Source: Pseudomonadota bacterium (GTDB taxonomy: Bacteria > Pseudomonadota > Alphaproteobacteria > Sphingomonadales > Sphingomonadaceae). From it: a stretch of 12,344 nucleotides of DNA. Position numbers and translations under genes: made by a program. Shown piece after piece: positions 3 to 11,904 of the stretch. The notes below the pieces were generated by a model, which saw only the letters and a program-made list of their open reading frames with translations, did no database searches and had not been told where the DNA came from. The first letter of the stretch is position 1, and each line of letters begins with the position of its first letter. The DNA is taken from positions 1-12,344 of the forward strand of contig JAEWJQ010000396.1 in the NCBI GenBank assembly GCA_023386515.1, read 5' to 3'.

Positions 3-1088
3 CGCCGGGTCGCCGCGACCCCCGAAACCGTCCGCAAGTTCGTCGCGCTGGGCGCAACGGTCGCCGGCGAGGCCGGAGCGGGCGCCGCCGCGTCCTTCGC
101 CGACGCCGCCTATGCCGAGGCGGGGGCGGCGGTCGGTGACCGTGCCGCGACGCTGGCCGGGGCGGACATCGTGCTCGGGGTGCAGGGGCCGGATCCCGCC
201 AGCCTCGGCGGGATCGCGCCGGGTGCCTGGCTGGTCGCGGGGCTCAATCCGTTCGGCGAACGGGCGCGGGTCGACGCCTATGCGGCGGCCGGGGTGGAGG
301 CGCTGGCGATGGAGTTGATGCCGCGCATCACCCGGGCCCAGTCGATGGACATCCTGTCGTCCCAATCGAACCTCAGCGGCTACAAGGCGGTACTCGACGC
401 GGCGGCGGAATATGGCCGCGCCTTTCCGATGATGATGACGGCGGCGGGCACGGTCAGCGCGGCCAAGGTGTTCGTCATGGGCGTCGGTGTCGCCGGGCTG
501 CAGGCGATCGCCACCGCCCGGCGGCTGGGCGCCCAGGTGTCGGCGACCGACGTCCGCTCGGCGACGCGCGAACAGATCCTCAGCCTCGGCGCCAAGCCGA
601 TCTTCGTCGAGGGCGTCGCCGGGATCGAGGGCGAGGGCAGCGGCGGTTACGCGGGCGAGATGAGCCCAGAATATCGGGCGGCGCAGGCCGAGTTGGTGTC
701 GAGCCATCTCGCCAAACAGGACATCGTCATCACCACCGCGCTGATTCCCGGTCGGCCGGCGCCGCGGCTGATCAGCGATGCGCAGCTGGCGACGATGCGT
801 CCGGGCAGCGTCGTCGTCGACCTCGCGGTCGAGCAGGGCGGCAACGTCGAGGGTGCCGTCGCTGGCGAGGTGGTCGAGCGCCATGGCGTCAAGATCGTCG
901 GCCACCGCAACGTGCCGTCGCGGCTGGCCGCCGATGCATCGGCGCTGTTCGCGCGCAATCTCTACAATTTCCTGTCGACTTTCTGGGACAAGGAGGCCGG
1001 GCGGCCCGTCCTCGACGAGGAGATCGGCGACGCGATCCGGCTGACGAAGGACGGGCAGGTGGTGCACGCAAGGTTGGTCGCTGGGTGA
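3..1088 (+). CDS. pntAA: NAD(P) transhydrogenase alpha-1 subunit, PntAA (5' truncated by window)
   Basis: This is the soluble NAD(H)-binding subunit (domain I) of the proton-translocating transhydrogenase, which transfers hydride between NADH and NADP+ using the proton gradient. The frame is open from base 3 and begins inside the conserved N-terminal stretch RRVAATPETVRKFVALGA, so roughly 10-20 residues and the start lie outside the window; 361 residues are visible. Other family marks are RITRAQSMDILSSQSNLSGY (the NAD-site loop region, bases about 324-383) and a Rossmann motif GVGVAG at 480-497 followed by SATDVRS. It ends at TGA 1086-1088 after HARLVAG with no membrane helices, as expected for the split alphaproteobacterial form, where the membrane part is a separate gene (pntAB). 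The stop overlaps the GTG of the following hicA-like frame (GTGA). The family assignment is very secure. Confidence 0.96.
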   Translation, partial: RRVAATPETVRKFVALGATVAGEAGAGAAASFADAAYAEAGAAVGDRAATLAGADIVLGVQGPDPASLGGIAPGAWLVAGLNPFGERARVDAYAAAGVEALAMELMPRITRAQSMDILSSQSNLSGYKAVLDAAAEYGRAFPMMMTAAGTVSAAKVFVMGVGVAGLQAIATARRLGAQVSATDVRSATREQILSLGAKPIFVEGVAGIEGEGSGGYAGEMSPEYRAAQAELVSSHLAKQDIVITTALIPGRPAPRLISDAQLATMRPGSVVVDLAVEQGGNVEGAVAGEVVERHGVKIVGHRNVPSRLAADASALFARNLYNFLSTFWDKEAGRPVLDEEIGDAIRLTKDGQVVHARLVAG

Positions 1089-1328
1089 ACGCCGACAAGC
1101 TACTCGCCGCGATGAGCCAATCCACGCGATTGGCGGATCGCGGATATCGAGCGGCTTTGCGGGCGGTACGGGCTGACTTGCACGGCACCCCGCAAGGGGT
1201 CACATTACAAGGTATCGCATCCGGCCTCACCGGTGATCCTGACGATACCGGCGCATCGACCGATCAAGCCGGTCTACGTTCGGGAACTAGTGCGGCTGAT
1301 CGATGCGATTGGGGAGCGCGAGCGATGA
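1085..1328 (+). pseudogene. hicA: HicA-family toxin (mRNA interferase) with a frameshift near the start
   Basis: A HicA-like protein is encoded in two frames. GTG 1085 opens MNADKLLAAM, a typical HicA N-terminus. The body then continues one frame over, from about 1119: NPRDWRIADIERLCGRYG, APRKGSHYKVSHP, ILTIPAHRPIKPVYVREL, ending at TGA 1326-1328. The GSH histidine (codon 1203-1205) corresponds to the family's catalytic His. The body frame has a TGA at 1113-1115 and no ATG, GTG or TTG between there and the GSH motif, so it has no usable start of its own. In relatives I recall, two residues separate the Met from NPRDW; here there are four bases (1115-1118), suggesting a 2-base loss, although a 1-base gain gives the same frame. 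The composite would be about 80 residues, a normal HicA length. The TGA overlaps the hicB ATG (ATGA). Most likely an inactivated toxin; a sequencing error or recoding are alternatives. Confidence 0.82.
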
Positions 1329-1540
1329 AACCGGAAGATTACGAGGTCGATATCCGACCCTTGTCGGACACTGACGGTGGCGGTTTCGTTGGCATCGTAC
1401 CCGATCTACCAGGTTGTGTATCCGATGGAGATACGCCGCACGAGGCGCTGTCCAATGCCTATGACGCCATTACATCGTGGGTCGAGGCTGCGGAAGAATT
1501 AGGGCGGCCCGTGCCGCAGCCACGCCGCGCCGCCGCCTAG
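1325..1540 (+). CDS. hicB: HicB-family antitoxin
   Basis: A 71-residue protein of the HicB antitoxin type, which binds and neutralises the HicA RNase. The family signature is clear: YEVDIRPLSDTDGGGFVG (residues 6-23), VPDLPGCVSDGDTPHEAL (25-42), then a helix NAYDAITSWVEAAEELGRP. It is the short form, consisting of the RNase-H-like partial fold, with no evident C-terminal ribbon-helix-helix or HTH DNA-binding domain. DNA autoregulation by HicB alone is therefore doubtful. The ATG at 1325 overlaps the HicA stop (ATGA) and has GGGGAG at 1311-1316, eight bases upstream. The same frame is open back to GTG 1085, so a ribosome starting at the hicA GTG without shifting would make HicB with an 80-residue unrelated N-terminal extension. 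The short form is chosen because all HicB similarity lies after Met 1325. Confidence 0.9.
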   Translation: MKPEDYEVDIRPLSDTDGGGFVGIVPDLPGCVSDGDTPHEALSNAYDAITSWVEAAEELGRPVPQPRRAAA

Positions 1541-1570
1541 TGCGACCTTTGAGACTTTTGGAGGACTGAC

Positions 1571-1870
1571 GTGGACTTCATCGCGATCCTGTCGATCTTC
1601 GTCCTGGCCTGTTTCGTCGGCTATTACGTCGTCTGGTCGGTGACGCCGGCGCTGCACACGCCGCTGATGGCGGTGACCAATGCGATCTCGTCGGTGATCA
1701 TCGTCGGCGCGCTGATCGCCGGGGCGGCGGCGGGCAGCACGGCGTCGAAATGGCTGGGGCTGCTCGGCGTCGTGCTGGCCAGCATCAACATCTTCGGCGG
1801 CTTTGCCGTCACCAGCCGCATGCTCGCCATGTACAAGAAGAAGGACCGGCCGGCGGCGGCCAGCAAATAA
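1571..1870 (+). CDS. pntAB: NAD(P) transhydrogenase alpha-2 subunit, PntAB
   Basis: A 99-residue membrane subunit (the alpha part of domain II) of the proton-translocating transhydrogenase. It supplies three helices to the proton channel and pairs with PntB. Helices are visible at about residues 4-22 (IAILSIFVLACFVGYYVVW), 34-54 (VTNAISSVIIVGALIAGAAA) and 60-82 (WLGLLGVVLASINIFGGFAV). The segment TPLMAVTNAISSVIIVGAL is highly conserved in this subunit, and the C-terminus SRMLAMYKKKDRP is basic, as usual. The start is GTG 1571, supported by GGAGG at 1560-1564 with six bases of spacing. It follows hicB by 30 bases and precedes pntB by 96 bases containing a palindromic repeat. In most genomes I know this gene directly follows pntAA; here a hicAB pair is interposed. 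Confidence 0.96.
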   Translation: MDFIAILSIFVLACFVGYYVVWSVTPALHTPLMAVTNAISSVIIVGALIAGAAAGSTASKWLGLLGVVLASINIFGGFAVTSRMLAMYKKKDRPAAASK

Positions 1871-1872
1871 TA

Positions 1873-1951
1873 CGTCACCCCGGCGAAGCCGGGGTCCACG
1901 CATCCACTTGCGCTGGTGGCGCGGTGGATCCCGGCCCTGGCCGGAATGACG
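1873..1951 (+). repeat. REP-like extragenic palindrome between pntAB and pntB
   Basis: A roughly 79-base imperfect palindrome made of two inverted copies of a short GC-rich unit. Outer arms are CGTCA (1873-1877) and TGACG (1947-1951). The left copy forms a 7-bp hairpin, CCCCGGC-gaa-GCCGGGG (1878-1894); the right copy forms CCGGCC-ct-GGCCGG (1931-1944). Inner TCCA (1895-1898) pairs with TGGA (1925-1928). Units of the form 'cgtcaccccggcgaagccgg' paired with 'ccggaatgacg' are, from memory, a common dispersed repeat in sphingomonads and caulobacters. In the transcript it would fold into a long hairpin lacking a T tract, so it could act as an mRNA-stability or attenuation element inside the operon rather than a simple terminator. 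Confidence 0.75.
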
Positions 1952-1966
1952 ACAAGGGGGGACAGG

Positions 1967-3466
1967 ATGGAACACGCAACTGCCGGCAGTTCGTTCGCGG
2001 CACTGGCTTATCTGATTGCCGGCGTGTGCTTCATCCTCGCGCTGCGCGGGTTGTCGTCGCCGATCTCGAGCCAGCGCGGCAATCGGCTCGGCATGATCGG
2101 CATGGCGATCGCCGTCGTGACGACATTGGTCACGCATGTGCCTTTGGGGGGATTGAGCGGCGCCCATGCGCCGGCTGTCGGGATAGGCGGCGGATATCTT
2201 GATATCGTAACCGCGCTCGAAATTCTCGCCGCCATCGCGATCGGCGCGGTGATCGGCATCACCACCGCGCGCCGCATCGCGATGACCGCCATGCCGCAGC
2301 TGGTCGCCGCCTTCCACAGCCTCGTCGGCCTCGCCGCGGTGCTCGTCGCCGCCGCCGCCTATTTCAACCCGTCGGCGTTCGGCATCGCCGATCTGGTCGT
2401 CCCGCTGCTCGGCAAGCCGTTCGCCATCATCCACCCGGTCAGCCGGATCGAGATGGGGCTTGGCGTCGCGATCGGCGCGATCACCTTCTCCGGATCGGTG
2501 ATCGCCTTCCTCAAGCTCAACGGCAATATGGGCGGCAAGCCTATCCTGCTGCCCGGTCGCCATGTCCTCAACCTCGGCGTCATCGCCGCCATCCTGCTGC
2601 TCGTCGCCTATTTTACCCAGGATCAGAGCCCCTGGGTGTTCTGGACGATCACCATCCTGTCCTTCGCAATCGGCTTCCTGCTGATCATCCCCATCGGCGG
2701 CGCGGACATGCCGGTGGTCGTGTCGATGCTGAACACCTATTCGGGCTGGGCGGCGGCGGCCATGGGGTTCACGTTGCACAACAGCGCGATGATCATCACC
2801 GGCGCGCTGGTCGGATCGTCGGGCGCGATCCTCAGCTACATCATGTGCCGCGCAATGAACCGCAGCTTCCTCAGCGTCATCGCCGGCGGCTTCGGCGCCG
2901 AAGCGAGCGCGGGCGGCGGTGCGGCGCAGGTCGACCGGCCGTGGAAGCGCGGCTCGGCCGAGGACGCCGCCTTCCTGATGAGCCAGGCGGAACAGGTGAT
3001 CATCGTCCCGGGCTATGGCATGGCGGTGGCGCAGGCACAGCACGTGCTGCGTGAGATGGCCGACAAGCTGAAGGTGCATGGCGTCCGCGTCAAATATGCG
3101 ATCCACCCCGTCGCCGGCCGCATGCCCGGTCATATGAACGTGCTGCTCGCCGAGGCCAACGTTCCCTATGACGAGGTGTTCGAGTTGGAGGACATCAACG
3201 GCGAATTCGCCCAGACCGACGTCGCTTTCGTCATCGGCGCGAATGACGTGACCAATCCCGCGGCCAAGACGGACAAGAGCTCGCCGATCTACGGCATGCC
3301 CGTGCTCGATGTGGAAAAGGCCAAGACCGTTCTCTTCATCAAGCGATCGATGGGCGGTGTTGGCTATGCCGGCGTCGATAACGACGTCTTCTACCGCGAC
3401 AACACGATGATGCTGCTCGCCGACGCCAAGAAGATGGTCGAAGAGATCGTCAAGTCGCTGGACTAG
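1967..3466 (+). CDS. pntB: NAD(P) transhydrogenase beta subunit, PntB
   Basis: A 499-residue inner-membrane subunit carrying most of the proton channel (domain II) and the NADP(H)-binding domain III. The N-terminal two thirds are strongly hydrophobic helices starting with ALAYLIAGVCFILALRGL. His117, in the segment AFHSLVGLAAV, matches the channel histidine of PntB (His91 in E. coli numbering, from memory). LLIIPIGGADMPVVVSMLN and YSGWAAAAMGF follow. Domain III motifs are PGYGMAVAQAQ (from about residue 348), HPVAGRMPGHMNVLLAEA (from about 380), GANDVTNPAA (from about 424) and the KRSM...GYAGVDN NADP loop. ATG 1967 is chosen because a G-rich Shine-Dalgarno run (1956-1961) lies five bases upstream; the longer frame from GTG 1916 would translate the palindromic repeat. 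It is the last pnt gene, ending at TAG 3464-3466. Confidence 0.97.
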   Translation: MEHATAGSSFAALAYLIAGVCFILALRGLSSPISSQRGNRLGMIGMAIAVVTTLVTHVPLGGLSGAHAPAVGIGGGYLDIVTALEILAAIAIGAVIGITTARRIAMTAMPQLVAAFHSLVGLAAVLVAAAAYFNPSAFGIADLVVPLLGKPFAIIHPVSRIEMGLGVAIGAITFSGSVIAFLKLNGNMGGKPILLPGRHVLNLGVIAAILLLVAYFTQDQSPWVFWTITILSFAIGFLLIIPIGGADMPVVVSMLNTYSGWAAAAMGFTLHNSAMIITGALVGSSGAILSYIMCRAMNRSFLSVIAGGFGAEASAGGGAAQVDRPWKRGSAEDAAFLMSQAEQVIIVPGYGMAVAQAQHVLREMADKLKVHGVRVKYAIHPVAGRMPGHMNVLLAEANVPYDEVFELEDINGEFAQTDVAFVIGANDVTNPAAKTDKSSPIYGMPVLDVEKAKTVLFIKRSMGGVGYAGVDNDVFYRDNTMMLLADAKKMVEEIVKSLD

Positions 3467-3499: not shown

Positions 3500-3519
3500 C
3501 GCCGACGTGCATGTCGGCG
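3500..3519 (+). promoter_or_regulatory. Perfect inverted repeat downstream of pntB, possible operator or hairpin
   Basis: Seven-base perfect arms CGCCGAC (3500-3506) and GTCGGCG (3513-3519) flank a six-base centre, 33 bases after the pntB stop and ahead of the regulator gene. It has no T tract, so it is a weak terminator candidate. Its position before a DNA-binding protein gene makes an operator possible. The function is inferred from position only; a chance match in GC-rich DNA remains possible. Confidence 0.35.
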
Positions 3520-3596
3520 CAGGCACGGTGCGGAACGGAGGCAATACGGCACCGGCCGGTCTGCCCTTGCTCTATCGTGCGCCGATGGGGAGCATG

Positions 3597-4535
3597 ATGA
3601 CGATCGGGGCCGGCACAGGCTACGCGATGGAAGGCCAACCGGTGGTGCTGGTCGCAGCGTCGAATGGTGGCGGCGATGCCGAACGTGCGGTGGCGGACCT
3701 GCGCTGTCGCATATTGCGGCGGCTCGACTGGACGCAATTGACCGATGGTCTGGACGAGCGCATCGGCCGCGTCGTGATCGTCGCGGAAGCCGGCGGCATA
3801 TCGCCGGAGGCACTCGACCAGGGCCTGCCGTGCCTTGACGATCTCGCCAGCGCGCGCGGCTTGCCAATCGTGATCAGCTTTGCGGCGCCGCAGCTCGATC
3901 AGGTCGCCGCGGCGCTCGGCGGCCCCCATGTCACGCTCCTTTGCGAGCCGACCGCGATCGATTGGGCCATCGCGCTCGCCATCGCGACGCAGATCGGCGT
4001 CCCGGTCCGCCTCAACGACAGCTGGCGGGAAAGCGCCGCTGCGCGGCTGCAGCGACTGAACGGCGAAGTGGCCCGTATCGCCGACATCTTGGCGCGTCTC
4101 GCGCAATCCGAGGAGGCGAGCGGCGATGTCGCCGATCGCCGCAGCGGCTATGATCCGGGTCCGATCGCGGCGACGCAGGACCCGGTGACGGCGCAGGAGG
4201 TGCGGCGCGCGATCCAGCTGCGCCGGTTGCGCGACAAACATTTCGAGATGTTCGGGGAGGGTCTGTTCGAGGATCCGGCCTGGGACATGCTGCTCGACCT
4301 GTACGCTGCCGAGCTGGAGGAGCAGCAGGTCAGCGTCTCCAGCCTGTGTATCGCCGCGGCGGTCGCGCCGACCACCGCTCTGCGCTGGATCGCCAAGATG
4401 ACGCAGATCGGCCTGTTCGTCCGCCATCCCGATCCCCTGGATCGCCGGCGCGCCTTCATGGGCCTGTCGCGCCCGGCGGCGGAGGCGATGCGCAGCTATA
4501 TGATCGCGGCGCGGCGCAACGAGGATCTCGGATGA
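3597..4535 (+). CDS. Winged-helix (MarR-like) regulator with N-terminal receiver-like region
   Basis: About 312 residues. The C-terminal third (roughly residues 195-300) looks like a winged helix-turn-helix: a lead helix VRRAIQLRRLRDKHFEMFG, FEDPAWDMLLDLYAAELE, VSVSSLCIAAAVAPTTALRW as the HTH, and a wing HPDPLDRRRAFMGLS. This layout is one I associate with sphingomonad regulators of the MarR/winged-helix type. The N-terminal part has alternating hydrophobic strands and helices (VVLVAAS, GRVVIVAEAGG, GLPIVISFAAP, HVTLLCEP), like a degenerate receiver or flavodoxin-like fold, but I see no phospho-acceptor Asp in the expected place. The start is uncertain: the frame is open from GTG 3507, with ATGs at 3585, 3594, 3597 and 3627. 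3597 has GGGGAG four bases upstream. It lies 130 bases after pntB on the same strand; its targets are unknown. Confidence 0.78.
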   Translation: MTIGAGTGYAMEGQPVVLVAASNGGGDAERAVADLRCRILRRLDWTQLTDGLDERIGRVVIVAEAGGISPEALDQGLPCLDDLASARGLPIVISFAAPQLDQVAAALGGPHVTLLCEPTAIDWAIALAIATQIGVPVRLNDSWRESAAARLQRLNGEVARIADILARLAQSEEASGDVADRRSGYDPGPIAATQDPVTAQEVRRAIQLRRLRDKHFEMFGEGLFEDPAWDMLLDLYAAELEEQQVSVSSLCIAAAVAPTTALRWIAKMTQIGLFVRHPDPLDRRRAFMGLSRPAAEAMRSYMIAARRNEDLG

Positions 4536-4600: not shown

Positions 4601-4676
4601 GGGCGCTTAGCTCAGCTGGTAGAGCGGCTCGTTTACACCGAGTAGGTCGGCGGTTCGAACCCGTCAGCGCCCACCA
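4601..4676 (+). tRNA. tRNA-Val (anticodon UAC)
   Basis: A full 76-base cloverleaf. The acceptor stem is GGGCGCT (4601-4607) with AGCGCCC (4666-4672), followed by discriminator A and an encoded CCA (4674-4676). The D arm is GCTC-agctggta-GAGC (4610-4625). The anticodon stem is GCTCG/CGAGT with one G-U pair, and the loop TTTACAC gives anticodon TAC (4634-4636), reading GUA and other Val codons. The T arm is GGCGG-TTCGAAC-CCGTC with one G-U pair. It starts 65 bases after the regulator gene. The stop of the convergent minus-strand gene begins just two bases beyond the CCA. Confidence 0.97.
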
Positions 4677-7083: not shown

Positions 7084-7142
7084 CGTCGATCCTCGTAGAA
7101 GCGGCACCGCCAATGTGCCGGTGTTGGCCGCGGCATTCAAGT

Positions 7143-7160
7143 GTATCATATAGGTAATAC
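7143..7160. promoter_or_regulatory. Imperfect AT-rich palindrome in the telA/typA divergent promoter region
   Basis: An AT-rich block stands out in GC-rich DNA: GTATCATATAGGTAATAC, with arms GTAT (7143-7146) and ATAC (7157-7160) and 12 of 18 positions symmetric. It contains -10-like sequences on the plus strand (ATATAG, TAATAC) and on the minus strand (TATATGAT). It lies 98 bases before the typA ATG and 60 bases before the telA ATG. It is probably the core promoter region for one or both genes; the dyad could also be an operator. The exact promoter elements cannot be fixed by eye. Confidence 0.35.
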
Positions 7161-7257
7161 GCGCCTGGGCTCCAAGCGGAAAACCGGTCGCCCTTCCCGC
7201 GGCGCAACATTTCGGCTATGGGCGCGCGAACTTCCCTCTTCCCGATCAGGATTTCTC

Positions 7258-9078
7258 ATGAGCCTCCGCAACGTGGCGATCATCGCGCACGTCGATCACG
7301 GCAAGACCACGCTCGTCGACCAGCTTTTCCGCCAGTCCGGCACCTTCCGCGACAACCAGCGCGTCGAGGAACGCGCGATGGATTCGAACGACCTCGAGAA
7401 GGAGCGCGGCATCACCATCCTCGCCAAGCCGACCTCGGTCGAATGGCAGGGCACGCGCATCAACATCGTCGACACGCCCGGCCACGCCGATTTCGGCGGC
7501 GAGGTGGAGCGCATCCTGTCGATGGTCGATGGCGTCATCCTGCTGGTCGATTCGTCGGAAGGCGCGATGCCGCAGACCAAGTTCGTCACCGGCAAGGCGC
7601 TGGCGCTGGGCCTGAAGCCGATCGTCGTCGTCAACAAGGTCGATCGCGCCGACGCCCGTATCCAGGAAGTGCTGGACGAGGTCTTCGACCTGTTCGTGTC
7701 GCTCGACGCCAATGACGAGCAGCTCGACTTCCCGGTGCTCTATGCGTCGGGCCGCAACGGCTATGCCTCGACTGACATGGACGCGCGCGAAGGCACGCTG
7801 ACCCCGATGTTCGAGCTGATCGTCAGCCACGTGCCGGCACCGAAGGTCGATCTGGACGCGCCGTTCAGCTTCCTGGTCACCCTGCTCGACCGCGACAATT
7901 TCGTTGGCCGCATCCTGACCGGCCGCGTCAACACCGGTACGCTGAAGCTCAACCAGGCGATCCACGCGCTCGACGCGGACGGCAACATCATCGAGACGGG
8001 TCGCGCGTCGAAGATCATGTCGTTCCGCGGGCTCGAGCGCGTCCCGGTCGAGGAAGCGCAGGCGGGCGACATCATCAGCCTCGCCGGCCTGACCGTCGCG
8101 ACCGTCGCCAATACGATCGCCGACGTCAGCGTCTCGACGCCGATCAAGGCGCAGCCGATCGATCCGCCGACGCTGTCGATGCGCTTCGCCGTCAATGATT
8201 CGCCGATGGCGGGTCGCGAGGGCAGCAAGGTGACCAGCCGCATGATCCGCGACCGCCTGATGCGTGAGGCGGAATCGAACGTGGCGATCAAGGTGACCGA
8301 GAGCGAGGACCGCGACAGCTTCGAGGTTGCCGGCCGCGGCGAACTGCAGCTCGGCGTGCTGATCGAGACGATGCGTCGCGAGGGCTTCGAGCTCGGCATC
8401 AGCCGCCCGCGCGTGCTGTTCCGCGATGGCGAGAACGGGCGCGAGGAGCCGTATGAAACCGTCGTGATCGACGTCGACGAGGAATTCTCCGGCACGGTCG
8501 TCGACAAGATGAACCAGCGCAAGGCCGAGATGACCGACATGCGCCCCTCGGGCGGCGGCAAGACGCGCATCACCTTCTCGGCGCCGAGCCGCGGCCTGAT
8601 TGGCTATCACGGCGAATTCCTGTCCGACACCCGCGGCACCGGCATCATGCACCGGCTGTTCGAGAAGTATGGGCCGTACAAGGGCCAGATCGAGGGACGC
8701 AAGAACGGCGTGCTGATCTCCAACGGTGCCGGCGAGGCGCAGGGCTATGCTCTGGGACCGCTCGAGGACCGCGGCATCCTGTTCGTGGGTCACGGCGAGG
8801 CGCTGTACGAGGGCATGATCATCGGCGAGAACGCCAAGACGGAGGACCTCGAGGTCAATCCGATGAAGGCGAAGCAGCTGACCAACTTCCGTGCGAGCGG
8901 CGGCAAGGACGATGCGATCCGCCTGACCCCGCCGAAGAAGATGACGCTGGAGCAGGCGATCGCCTATATCGACGACGACGAGATGGTCGAAGTCACGCCC
9001 AAGTCGATCCGGCTGCGCAAGCGCCACCTCGACCCGCACGAGCGCAAGCGCGCCAGCCGGGCGAAGCAGGCGGCCTGA
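7258..9078 (+). CDS. typA: Ribosome-associated translational GTPase TypA/BipA
   Basis: A 606-residue translation-factor GTPase that binds the 70S ribosome at the EF-G site and helps ribosome assembly and growth under cold and other stress. All G motifs are present: G1 AHVDHGKTT (residues 10-18), switch I ERGITI (49-54), G3 [14 protein letters not shown] (72-85) and G4 NKVD (126-129). Domain II, the EF-G-like domains III and V, and the BipA-specific C-terminal domain follow, with conserved segments [73 protein letters not shown] and [18 protein letters not shown]. The length is normal (about 600). The start is ATG 7258, which gives the typical [22 protein letters not shown] ends seven bases before it. 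Upstream in-frame codons to 7141 lie in the promoter region. It is a single-gene unit ended by the hairpin at 9101-9134. Confidence 0.98.
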
Positions 9079-9226: not shown

Positions 9227-11581
9227 TTAGTTGAACCGGCCGCTGACCGAAACGCCGAACACGCGCGGCTCGTTGAACACGGCGGCCATGTAGTTTTCGA
9301 TCACGCCCTTCAAATTCTTCTCGCCGGTGATGTTGCGGGCGAAGGCGGCGATCTCGTACTTGTCGTCGGCGGTGGTGATGCCGAGCTTCAGCCCACCTTC
9401 GAAATTGCCGTTCGCGTAGAATTCACGGGTGCGATAGAGAACGAAGTTGGTGTAGCCCTGGATGTTCCAGTCGGTCGCTGCGAACAGCTTCGCTCCGCTC
9501 GCGAGCGGCACGTCGTAGCGTGCGGTGGCGTTCAGCCCCCATTTCGGCGCGTTGGGCAACGGGTTGCCGTCGATCTTGGCCAGATAGACCGGACCGAAGG
9601 CGGTGGCGACGGTGCGCACCGGATTGAGCACGGTGCAGACCACGATGCCGTTGAGCGCGCAGACCTGCGCCTCGGTACGACCGTCGACGATCTTCGACTT
9701 GAGCGCGCTCGCGCCCAGCGTCAGCGTCAGATTGCGCATCGGCCGGTATTCGGCGTCGAGCTCGACACCCCAGGCGCGCGCCTTGTTGGCGTTGAACAGG
9801 ATACCGTTGCCGTTGATGTCGTTGCCGTTCAGCTGGATGTTGTCGACCGTATAGGTGAACAGCGACGAGTTGAGCCGCAGCCGGCCGTCGAGGAACAGTC
9901 CCTTCGAGCCGATCTCGTAGGAGGTGATCGTCTCGCTGTCCGCCGTGGTGAAGGGCGAGTTGAACACCGCCGAACGGCCCTGGATCGTCGGGCCGCGGAA
10001 ACCGCGGGCGACGCGCGCATAGACGCTGTTCGACGGATCGATCGTGTAGAGCGCCGACAGATCCCAGCTCGGCTCCTTGCCCTCCAGCCGCACCGCCTTG
10101 GGCGCCGTCGGATTGCTGCGGACGAACTGGTCGATCGTCCCGGTGACGTCGTAGACGGGCTTGAGCAGCGTCGTCTTCTTAATGTCCTGCGTGTAACGGC
10201 CGCCGGCGGTCAGCGTGAAGGCCGGCGTCACCTTGTAGCTGACCTGGCCGAAGCCCGCCCAGCTGGTGTTGACGTTGTGCAGGCGAACCCAGTTGTTCGG
10301 ATTGCGCGCCGCCGTGGTCAGGAAGAAGGTGCGCTGGTAGAAATCGGGCGTGTCGTTCTGGTTGAAGTAGAAGCCGCCGACCTGCCAGGTGAAGCGCTGG
10401 TCGCCGGGCGAAGCGAGGCGGATTTCCTGGGTATACTGGCCGAGCGCGCGGACGTTGCCCTGGCTCTGGCCGAAGCCGTTGGCGACGCCGTTGACCGGAT
10501 AATTGGCCGCCGCGCCGCCGTCGGTATCGCCGCGGCTGAAGCCCGAGGTCGTCTCATAGGCGCTGATCGAGGTCAGGGTCGCAGCGCCGAAATCGTAGGA
10601 GCCGTTCACCGACCAGCCGTAGGTGTCGTAATTCTGCGGGTTGTTCTTCGCCTCGTCATAGGCGACGCGGTCGCGCGGCTCGGCCTCGACCGAGTTCGAG
10701 CCCTTCTTCAGCGCGGCGCGGTGGAACAGCGTCGACGTGCCCTCATAGCCGCGGGCGTGGCCCGAGACGTTGACGGTGAACGCCTCGGTCGGGGTCAGCA
10801 GGATCTGGAGGCGCGCGTCCTTTTCGGTGAAGCCGCCCATCGCGTTCTTCAGCGGCGTCGAGGTGCCGTCGGCGCTGGTGCCGGTGAAGGTGTTGTCGAC
10901 CCAGTCGTTGCGATGCTGGATCAGGCCCGACAGGCGGAAGGCGATCTTATCCTGCACGATCGGACCGCCGACGCCGGCGTCATAGGTGAAGGTGCCGAGG
11001 TTGCCGGCCGATGCCGAGACGCGGCCCTGCCAATTCTGGCTCGGACGAATCGTGTCGAACTTGATGATGCCGGCAGTGGTGTTGCGGCCGAACAGCGAGC
11101 CCTGCGGACCGCGCAGCACCTCGACCTGGGCGACGTCGTAGACCGGGTTCGACTTCAGCACGACATGTTCGAGGACGACGTCGTCCTGGATGATCGATAC
11201 CGGCTGCGAGGCGCCGAGATAGAAGTCGATGTTGCCGAGACCGCGAATGTAATAGCGCGGGAAGATGCGGCCGGTGGTGGTTTCGGCGTAGAGGCCGGGG
11301 ACGCGCCCGGACAGGGCCAGCGTGTCCTCGCCACCCGATTGGAAGGCGCGCAAATCGCCGCCGTTCACCACCGCCACCGACAGCGGCACGCGTTGCAGGT
11401 TCTCCGACCGGCGTTCGGCGGTGACGACGATGTCGCCCAGGTCGCCGGTATCGGCGGTCTGCGTCTGCTCGACCGCATCGGCGCGGTCGGCGCCCGGCTG
11501 AGCGGTCTGGGCCAGAGCGGGAGCGGCGAGGGTCGTGGCGCTGATCAGCAGCGCGGTCTTCAACAGGTGGCGATGGTTCAC
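9227..11581 (-). CDS. TonB-dependent outer-membrane receptor, substrate unknown
   Basis: A 784-residue outer-membrane active transporter powered by TonB-ExbBD. It has a signal peptide (residues 1-25: basic MNHRHLLK, hydrophobic core, APALAQ before the cut), an acidic linker, a TonB-box-like GDIVVTAERR (about 49-58), and a plug domain with LSGRVPGLY, RYYIRGLG, and the hallmark EVLRGPQGSLFGRNTTAG. A long 22-strand-type barrel with many aromatic beta segments follows, such as FTLTAGGRYTQDIKK and SVYARVARGFRGP. It ends in FGVSVSGRFN, with Phe next to last instead of the usual terminal aromatic residue. GTG 11581 is preferred: AAGGGGAAAA (11587-11596) sits about nine bases upstream, and it puts the signal peptide at the start; GTG 11605 is the longer alternative. 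No regulator or enzyme gene adjoins it, so the substrate cannot be inferred. The plug style resembles sphingomonad receptors for plant or aromatic compounds and siderophores. Confidence 0.95.
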   Translation of the reverse strand: MNHRHLLKTALLISATTLAAPALAQTAQPGADRADAVEQTQTADTGDLGDIVVTAERRSENLQRVPLSVAVVNGGDLRAFQSGGEDTLALSGRVPGLYAETTTGRIFPRYYIRGLGNIDFYLGASQPVSIIQDDVVLEHVVLKSNPVYDVAQVEVLRGPQGSLFGRNTTAGIIKFDTIRPSQNWQGRVSASAGNLGTFTYDAGVGGPIVQDKIAFRLSGLIQHRNDWVDNTFTGTSADGTSTPLKNAMGGFTEKDARLQILLTPTEAFTVNVSGHARGYEGTSTLFHRAALKKGSNSVEAEPRDRVAYDEAKNNPQNYDTYGWSVNGSYDFGAATLTSISAYETTSGFSRGDTDGGAAANYPVNGVANGFGQSQGNVRALGQYTQEIRLASPGDQRFTWQVGGFYFNQNDTPDFYQRTFFLTTAARNPNNWVRLHNVNTSWAGFGQVSYKVTPAFTLTAGGRYTQDIKKTTLLKPVYDVTGTIDQFVRSNPTAPKAVRLEGKEPSWDLSALYTIDPSNSVYARVARGFRGPTIQGRSAVFNSPFTTADSETITSYEIGSKGLFLDGRLRLNSSLFTYTVDNIQLNGNDINGNGILFNANKARAWGVELDAEYRPMRNLTLTLGASALKSKIVDGRTEAQVCALNGIVVCTVLNPVRTVATAFGPVYLAKIDGNPLPNAPKWGLNATARYDVPLASGAKLFAATDWNIQGYTNFVLYRTREFYANGNFEGGLKLGITTADDKYEIAAFARNITGEKNLKGVIENYMAAVFNEPRVFGVSVSGRFN

Positions 11582-11904
11582 GATCTTTTTCCCCTTGTAC
11601 TGCACGCAAAGGGGGCGCCCCGCTCAGTCCGCGCGTAACCGCGATCACGGACGGATACCGGCTGCTGTGGTGTCCGCCCCCGCGGCTGCGGCCGGCGCTA
11701 GGCGCGGATTATGTCGGTATTATGAATGGAGATTAACCTTTCAATCATCCGGCCCGCCGCGCAGCAGGACCGGCTAAACCGCTGCTTAACGGCGCATTCC
11801 GGCTCCGTTCAGCGCGAATCGGCCACAGCATCGCAACACGCTCGCACCCTTGTGCGTTTTCCCACCAAGCGGACCGGGCGTTGGCGTATGAGGAGGTTCG
11901 AGAG
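11582..11904. other. Divergent intergenic region between the receptor and the glycine-zipper gene
   Basis: About 320 bases without a convincing gene. It must hold the promoters of both the receptor (minus) and the small secreted protein (plus). The stretch around 11705-11745 is AT-richer than its surroundings. On the minus strand it offers a TTAATC (11731-11736) and CATAAT (11708-11713) pair at 17-base spacing, a weak sigma-70-like match that would start a leader of about 120 bases before the receptor. A second CATAAT-like box (11719-11724) lies nearby. Short GC-rich inverted repeats occur at 11650-11710, but I recognise no riboswitch or Fur-type box. Confidence 0.3.

Follow-up and report, generated by a model that had tools for sequence, protein, structure and literature searches.

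Is a HicA/HicB toxin–antitoxin pair lying between pntAA and pntAB a working part of the transhydrogenase operon or a passenger within it? We analyzed a stretch of 12,344 nucleotides in which this arrangement occurs (hereafter, the window). The pair is probably a compact HicAB module, with a HicB devoid of a DNA-binding domain, carried as a passenger between pntAA and pntAB and decaying here, at a junction whose contents turn over.

Layout of the locus and the frame break in hicA

The genes pntAA, hicA, hicB, pntAB, and pntB follow each other on the forward strand of the window, as established from the open reading frame (ORF) list and Pfam search, and according to Pfam the ordered pntAA, pntAB, and pntB on one strand constitute a proton-translocating transhydrogenase operon. 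In the sequence, GTG 1085 lies within the pntAA stop codon (GTGA overlap), and the hicB ATG at 1325 lies within the stop codon of the hicA frame (ATGA overlap, 1325–1328). The five-gene order, both overlaps, and the 30-base gap ahead of pntAB had been described in an earlier note on this DNA, and all are borne out by the ORF list, Pfam, and the sequence. The features are as follows.

3–1088, + strand: pntAA, transhydrogenase alpha subunit domain I, 5′ end truncated by the window start (PF05222, E = 1e-34; PF01262, E = 5e-62)
1085–1114, + strand: start of hicA (GTG), before the frame break, aligned by eye with the hicA starts of intact relatives
1116–1328, + strand: remainder of hicA in another frame, with the HicA domain and GSHYK (PF07927, E = 9e-7); stop codon at 1113–1115 directly upstream
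1325–1540, + strand: hicB, 71 residues, intact, N-terminal HicB domain only (PF15919, E = 4e-11; 69 homologues, the nearest 94% identical)
1085–1540, + strand: 151-codon ORF, the broken hicA continuing in frame into hicB (ORF list, frames, Pfam)
1541–1570, + strand: 30-base gap with GGAGG at 1560–1564 ahead of the pntAB GTG (30/30 bases identical in locus L169)
1571–1870, + strand: pntAB, four-helix membrane subunit (PF12769, E = 8e-36)
1967–3466, + strand: pntB, beta subunit (PF02233, E = 5e-190)

The intergenic segment between pntAB and pntB (1871–1966) resembles what we take to be a dispersed Sphingomonad repeat; an inverted-repeat scan reported no pairs of at least 12 nt in 1860–1975. Just downstream of pntB lie an ORF at 3507–4535 with a weak C-terminal MarR-like match (Pfam, E = 0.04) and a tRNA-Val gene (anticodon tac, 4601–4676), followed by 2 long ORFs that, by appearance, encode a putative TypA/BipA GTPase (7141–9078) and, on the reverse strand, a putative TonB-dependent receptor (9227–11605).

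The HicA homology is confined to the frame 1116–1325 (PF07927, 29.3 bits against a curated cut-off of 27). About 10 codons in, the frame opened by GTG 1085 parts from the HicA frame, and from there it runs without a stop into hicB, the first 78 residues of the 151-codon ORF matching no Pfam family at E = 10, and the third frame across the hicA region contains several stops. The HicA frame itself retains GSHYK, presumably the catalytic histidine motif of HicA, and is preceded by the stop at 1113–1115; inspection by eye revealed no ATG, GTG, or TTG ahead of the codons for this motif. Intact relatives encode a continuous HicA of about 81 residues, the start of which overlaps or adjoins the pntAA stop. 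Since HicA is found only behind a stop and out of the GTG frame, hicA is broken in the window and hicB intact, and the 151-codon ORF arises because the hicA start, the out-of-frame hicA, and hicB are read as one frame. The earlier assignment of 1085–1540 to HicA/HicB thus holds for both domains, which Pfam recovers, but not for hicA as one open gene: the toxin gene is a single open frame in most relatives at this junction and not in the window, where its toxin is very probably not made. No relative with the same fused ORF was found, the best match to the 151-residue product (P0070) being a different HicA–HicB fusion. We also considered whether frame breaks are selected to keep translation open through the spacer and set the idea aside, the 2 or 3 cases being too few for a judgment; extended across hicA, the hicB frame is free of stops in 8 of 25 intact relatives.

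It is quite unlikely that the break stems from faulty sequencing or assembly and that the pair is in fact intact. The window is known from a single sequence, and its remaining HicA frame and catalytic motif look unharmed, as such an error would leave them; yet the break involves no homopolymer, and in the protein database the closest HicA match reaches 78% identity and the closest HicB match 94%. Moreover, that HicB (P0001) is altered at residues 35, 40, and 42, which are invariant in a 17-sequence alignment that includes the window, and the pair has been lost from L169, the nearest pnt relative of the window (tree support 1.0). L169 is 92.7% identical to the window over 1–1094 and 91.3% over 1500–3349, and between these flanks hicA and most of hicB are gone. 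What remains is collinear, namely a stretch of 35 bases from the hicA–hicB junction and another of about 40 from the 3′ end of hicB, both roughly three quarters identical; the best local score, 30, was reached by none of 500 shuffles, which preserve base composition only. The broken hicA in the window and the short remnants in L169 are best accommodated by a decayed passenger held by the operon, one of the options that the earlier note had raised.

The HicB domain scored 43.5 bits (PF15919, curated cut-off 27), and Pfam and NCBIfam scans detected no helix-turn-helix or ribbon-helix-helix domain at its C-terminus; NCBIfam gave no match at all. In searches against solved structures, HicB weakly matched 3 HicB chain sequences and the HicA profile had no match. 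The pair resembles the Class 1 modules of a 2024 survey (PMC10865869) in its hicAB order, gene overlap, HicA of about 81 residues in intact relatives, and HicB of 71 residues, that is, within 60–90 residues and free of a DNA-binding domain. It differs from the Class 1 description, as far as the accessible text of the survey goes, in being nested in a housekeeping operon, where a promoter has little space, and in its broken hicA; that text does not mention such nesting, and the word stem Sphingomon is absent from the paper. With the canonical modules (Classes 3 and 4) the window shares the HicA and HicB domains and a toxin gene that comes first, but canonical HicB is self-repressing and has a C-terminal DNA-binding domain, which the window HicB lacks. 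According to the same portion of the survey, Class 1 toxins and antitoxins had not been tried experimentally, and the absent domain leaves their regulation an open question. Our literature searches, with most subscription journals outside their reach, found nothing on transhydrogenase together with HicA and HicB or on pntAA and pntAB together with Sphingomonas.

An internal terminator and promoter, which according to the earlier note would set the pair apart from pnt transcription, did not emerge from a consensus scan of 900–2100: as weak evidence, the scan gave no sigma-70-like sites where 0.2 would be expected; terminator-like sites numbered 3, against an expectation of 0.7, and all of them lie on the reverse strand, none on the forward strand. 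Having no visible promoter, HicAB would probably depend on the pnt promoter for transcription and on coupling through the GTGA and ATGA overlaps for translation. The HicA of intact relatives would act as an mRNA-cutting toxin restrained by HicB, and the toxin-to-antitoxin ratio may be set by the pnt operon rather than by HicB repressing a promoter of its own.

The pntAA–pntAB junction in Sphingomonas and beyond

HicB (E of 1e-15 or better) was detected in 34 of 295 genomes of the genus Sphingomonas, taken as that of S. oligophenolica, or about a tenth, and in 31 of the 34 it lies between pntAA and pntAB. In G436 and G399, HicB is apart from pntAB, at another place or on another contig, and in G500 it is on a 3,207-base contig devoid of pnt. 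Loci without either gene are under-counted by searches with HicB, and the reverse search with HicA (E = 1e-10) recovered 28 of the 295 genomes, all within the 34 HicB-positive ones; none of the 28 carries HicA without HicB. Among the best 80 of 279 loci matched by the HicB profile in one genome per species, hicB is between pntAA and pntAB in 22, from records titled Sphingomonas, Blastomonas, Novosphingobium, Sphingomonadaceae, Sphingomonadales, or class- or phylum-level metagenome bins. A 298-genome family sample contained pntAB in 284 genomes, and loci with hicB at the junction (G001, G096, and G139) were among the 30 HicB matches examined. An insertion private to the window genome and recent is rejected, since the pair occupies the same place in 31 of the 34 genomes. 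Candidate plasmid or phage sources of HicB were likewise rejected: 55 plasmid and 80 phage records matched in tblastn, none at 60% identity or more.

The junction itself is often occupied. Of 106 genus loci taken in order of their pntAB similarity to the window, the spacer is at least 200 bp in 69, empty and shorter than 200 bp in 36, and reduced to a hicB fragment in 1 (L174); hicB is present in 6 of the 106, a count that excludes, from rank 31 down, the hicB-bearing genomes G514, G096, G405, G465, G004, G002, and G329. Restoring these 7 would bring the loci with spacers of at least 200 bp to 76 of 113; G449 and G528 were also left out of the ranked count, for no stated reason. In a class-wide sample, pntAB was found in 87 of 111 genomes, and 2 of the best 30 loci were Sphingomonas. 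None of the other 28, presumed to be other Alphaproteobacteria with pntAB 65–78% identical, has a spacer of at least 200 bp. The gap between pntAB and pntB is at most 226 bp in 191 family loci and measures 945, 319, and 204 bp in 3 of the 28 class loci.

The 166 unique pntAA–pntAB spacers, which include loci selected for having hicB, comprise 52 that are empty and shorter than 200 bp and 8 that are longer and unassigned; the rest carry guests. Alone or combined, these are hicAB or hicB, DUF559 (PF04480), fasciclin (PF02469), nucleoside deoxyribosyltransferase-like (PF05014), bPH-like, and VOC-like genes, as well as secreted-looking families devoid of a Pfam match; Pfam identities come from one member each, and the bPH-like and VOC-like labels are our putative reading. 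Fasciclin-like genes occupy the junction in L095, L099, L102, and L106, with Pfam confirmation for L099. Every one of the 156 guest matches runs in the direction of pnt, a figure based on 11 guest reference proteins taken from forward ORFs, so that a family of reverse-only guests would be missed.

Slot content is patchy on the pnt protein tree, where hicB requires at least 23 changes, against a mean of 34.4 with shuffled labels. Distances between HicB proteins correlate moderately with pnt distances (Mantel r = 0.38, 5 of 2,000 permutations), as do those between HicA proteins (r = 0.40, 0 of 2,000). The correlations point to both inheritance and movement of HicAB, and because HicB and HicA distances track those of pnt, much of the history may be vertical rather than swapping. 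At locus L001, the order is pntAA, DUF559, a pntAB 5′ fragment, a pntAA 3′ fragment, hicAB, and pntAB, which looks as if 2 slot alleles had been joined. The DUF559 gene there (L001:2108–2575) lies between 69-nt inverted repeats that are 78% complementary, and in each of 8 genomes its protein is matched 3 to 24 times, many of these matches being short; the gene looks like a mobile repeat-flanked gene. A DUF559 gene also stands at the hicA position before hicB in L160, L166, L168, and L274. Homologous recombination within the conserved flanking genes pntAA and pntAB would probably account for part of the turnover of the slot in Sphingomonas and its family, a step suggested by the fused flank fragments at one locus and otherwise one that we infer.

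Loss of hicA and persistence of hicB

Among the 31 genus loci with hicB in the slot, hicA is lost or damaged in 8 (5 lost, 3 damaged). The gene is absent from G316, G475, G434, and G520, where a DUF559 gene precedes hicB, and is reduced to a C-terminal remnant in G405. Of the damaged copies, found in G334, G392, and G512, one has GSHYK changed to GWPDK, one has GSNYK plus a stop, and one is missing its N-terminal part; G516, with an open frame and unusual residues, was scored as intact. Beyond these 31 loci, L007 has a frame break in the C-terminal half of hicA, L052 has hicB without hicA, and in L174 only the second half of hicB is left. For a binomial test we took 10 independent losses, a number of our own counting. 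Loss of the toxin before the antitoxin is expected for any toxin–antitoxin pair.

These losses bear on the proposal of the earlier note that the insertion ties the pair to NADPH metabolism. We regard as highly improbable the reading that HicAB is a working, conserved part of pnt through whose HicA growth control is coupled to NADPH supply. The identical place and order in the 31 genomes and dN/dS values well under 1 for hicA and hicB in most close pairs speak for it; against it, no more than about a tenth of the genus has the pair, 8 of 31 loci have lost hicA or carry a damaged copy, the window copy is broken, and close relatives have unrelated genes or nothing at the junction. The note had expected a conserved hicAB to support a functional link. 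The pair does recur in place, but since relatives have small unrelated genes, or none, at this junction, the recurrence is insufficient to establish such a link.

In most close pairs, dN/dS is about 0.1 for hicB, also in pairs with one member devoid of a working hicA, and well below 1 for hicA; some pntAB values and the hicA pair L020–L091 were distorted by indels and excluded. The only sister pair in which both members lack hicA gave 0.57 for hicB, on very few changes. Because values near 0.1 persist where hicA is not working, hicB may still have a use. That hicB, once the toxin is lost, is retained for a separate function, for instance, blocking HicA of incoming elements, nonetheless seems rather unlikely. 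In its favor, hicB is free of stops in 38 of 38 unique slot loci (the L174 fragment among them), dN/dS is low in the pairs with one toxin-less member, and orphan antitoxins of Klebsiella, which likewise lack a working toxin gene, have been suggested, in the part of that study available, to play such roles (PMC7192599); the window orphan differs from them in lying inside a core metabolic operon. Conversely, much of hicB is lost in L169 and L174, P0001 departs at the invariant residues, and the pair L168–L274 hints at relaxed selection. Under the decaying-passenger reading, which we prefer, the window hicB would persist as an orphan antitoxin on its way to loss.

HicAB pairs outside the pnt operon

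Alignment places the hicA start −16 to +31 bases from the pntAA stop in 28 of 32 hicA-bearing loci, the remaining 4 having another guest between the two. For relatives outside pnt, a position at most 50 bp behind a co-directional gene was called in 23 of 51, and for control modules (GC-rich, HicB of at least 105 residues) in 1 of 13. The caller is our own codon score, trained on the same loci, and the Fisher value of 0.02 for tight docking therefore overstates the case; in addition, 12 relatives have one common Mesorhizobium arrangement, which accounts for 11 of the 23 tight calls. The relatives come from the 62 loci L019–L080, from which 7 (L020, L024, L025, L026, L037, L039, and L052) were left out by hand, 5 being in or near pnt or without hicA and 2 having low-similarity context, and 4 more were dropped for want of a hicA match or upstream sequence. 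The hicA starts of the controls L314, L319, and L332 were placed by hand, without a profile match. We reject a general rule of promoterless docking among the relatives, as 28 of the 51 were not called tight.

Ten upstream genes were typed with NCBIfam: 3 encode RuvB and 1 each TrpA, phosphoglycerate dehydrogenase, B12-dependent ribonucleotide reductase, GroEL, and NifA, and 2 Mesorhizobium genes were unmatched. Relatives of the window HicAB sit directly behind ruvB, trpA, and serA; the GroEL locus (122 bp away), the NifA locus, and one RuvB locus were not called tight. We advance only tentatively, as a possibility that we would not yet favor, the generalization that a HicAB module with a HicB devoid of a DNA-binding domain lives as an operon passenger. 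Many such modules would dock, promoterless, at stop codons of constitutively expressed housekeeping genes (pntAA, ruvB, trpA, serA, and others), leaving the toxin-to-antitoxin ratio to the host operon and translational coupling, and in Sphingomonas and its family the contents of the pnt slot would be exchanged via flank homology.

The locus offers a natural test set, with one core operon, one junction, and many close species in which hicAB is intact, broken, or absent. This set bears on how hicAB is regulated when HicB has no DNA-binding domain, a question left open in the accessible text of the 2024 survey (PMC10865869). A core metabolic operon can serve as a parking place for small accessory genes, a role that is invisible from the annotation of a single genome.
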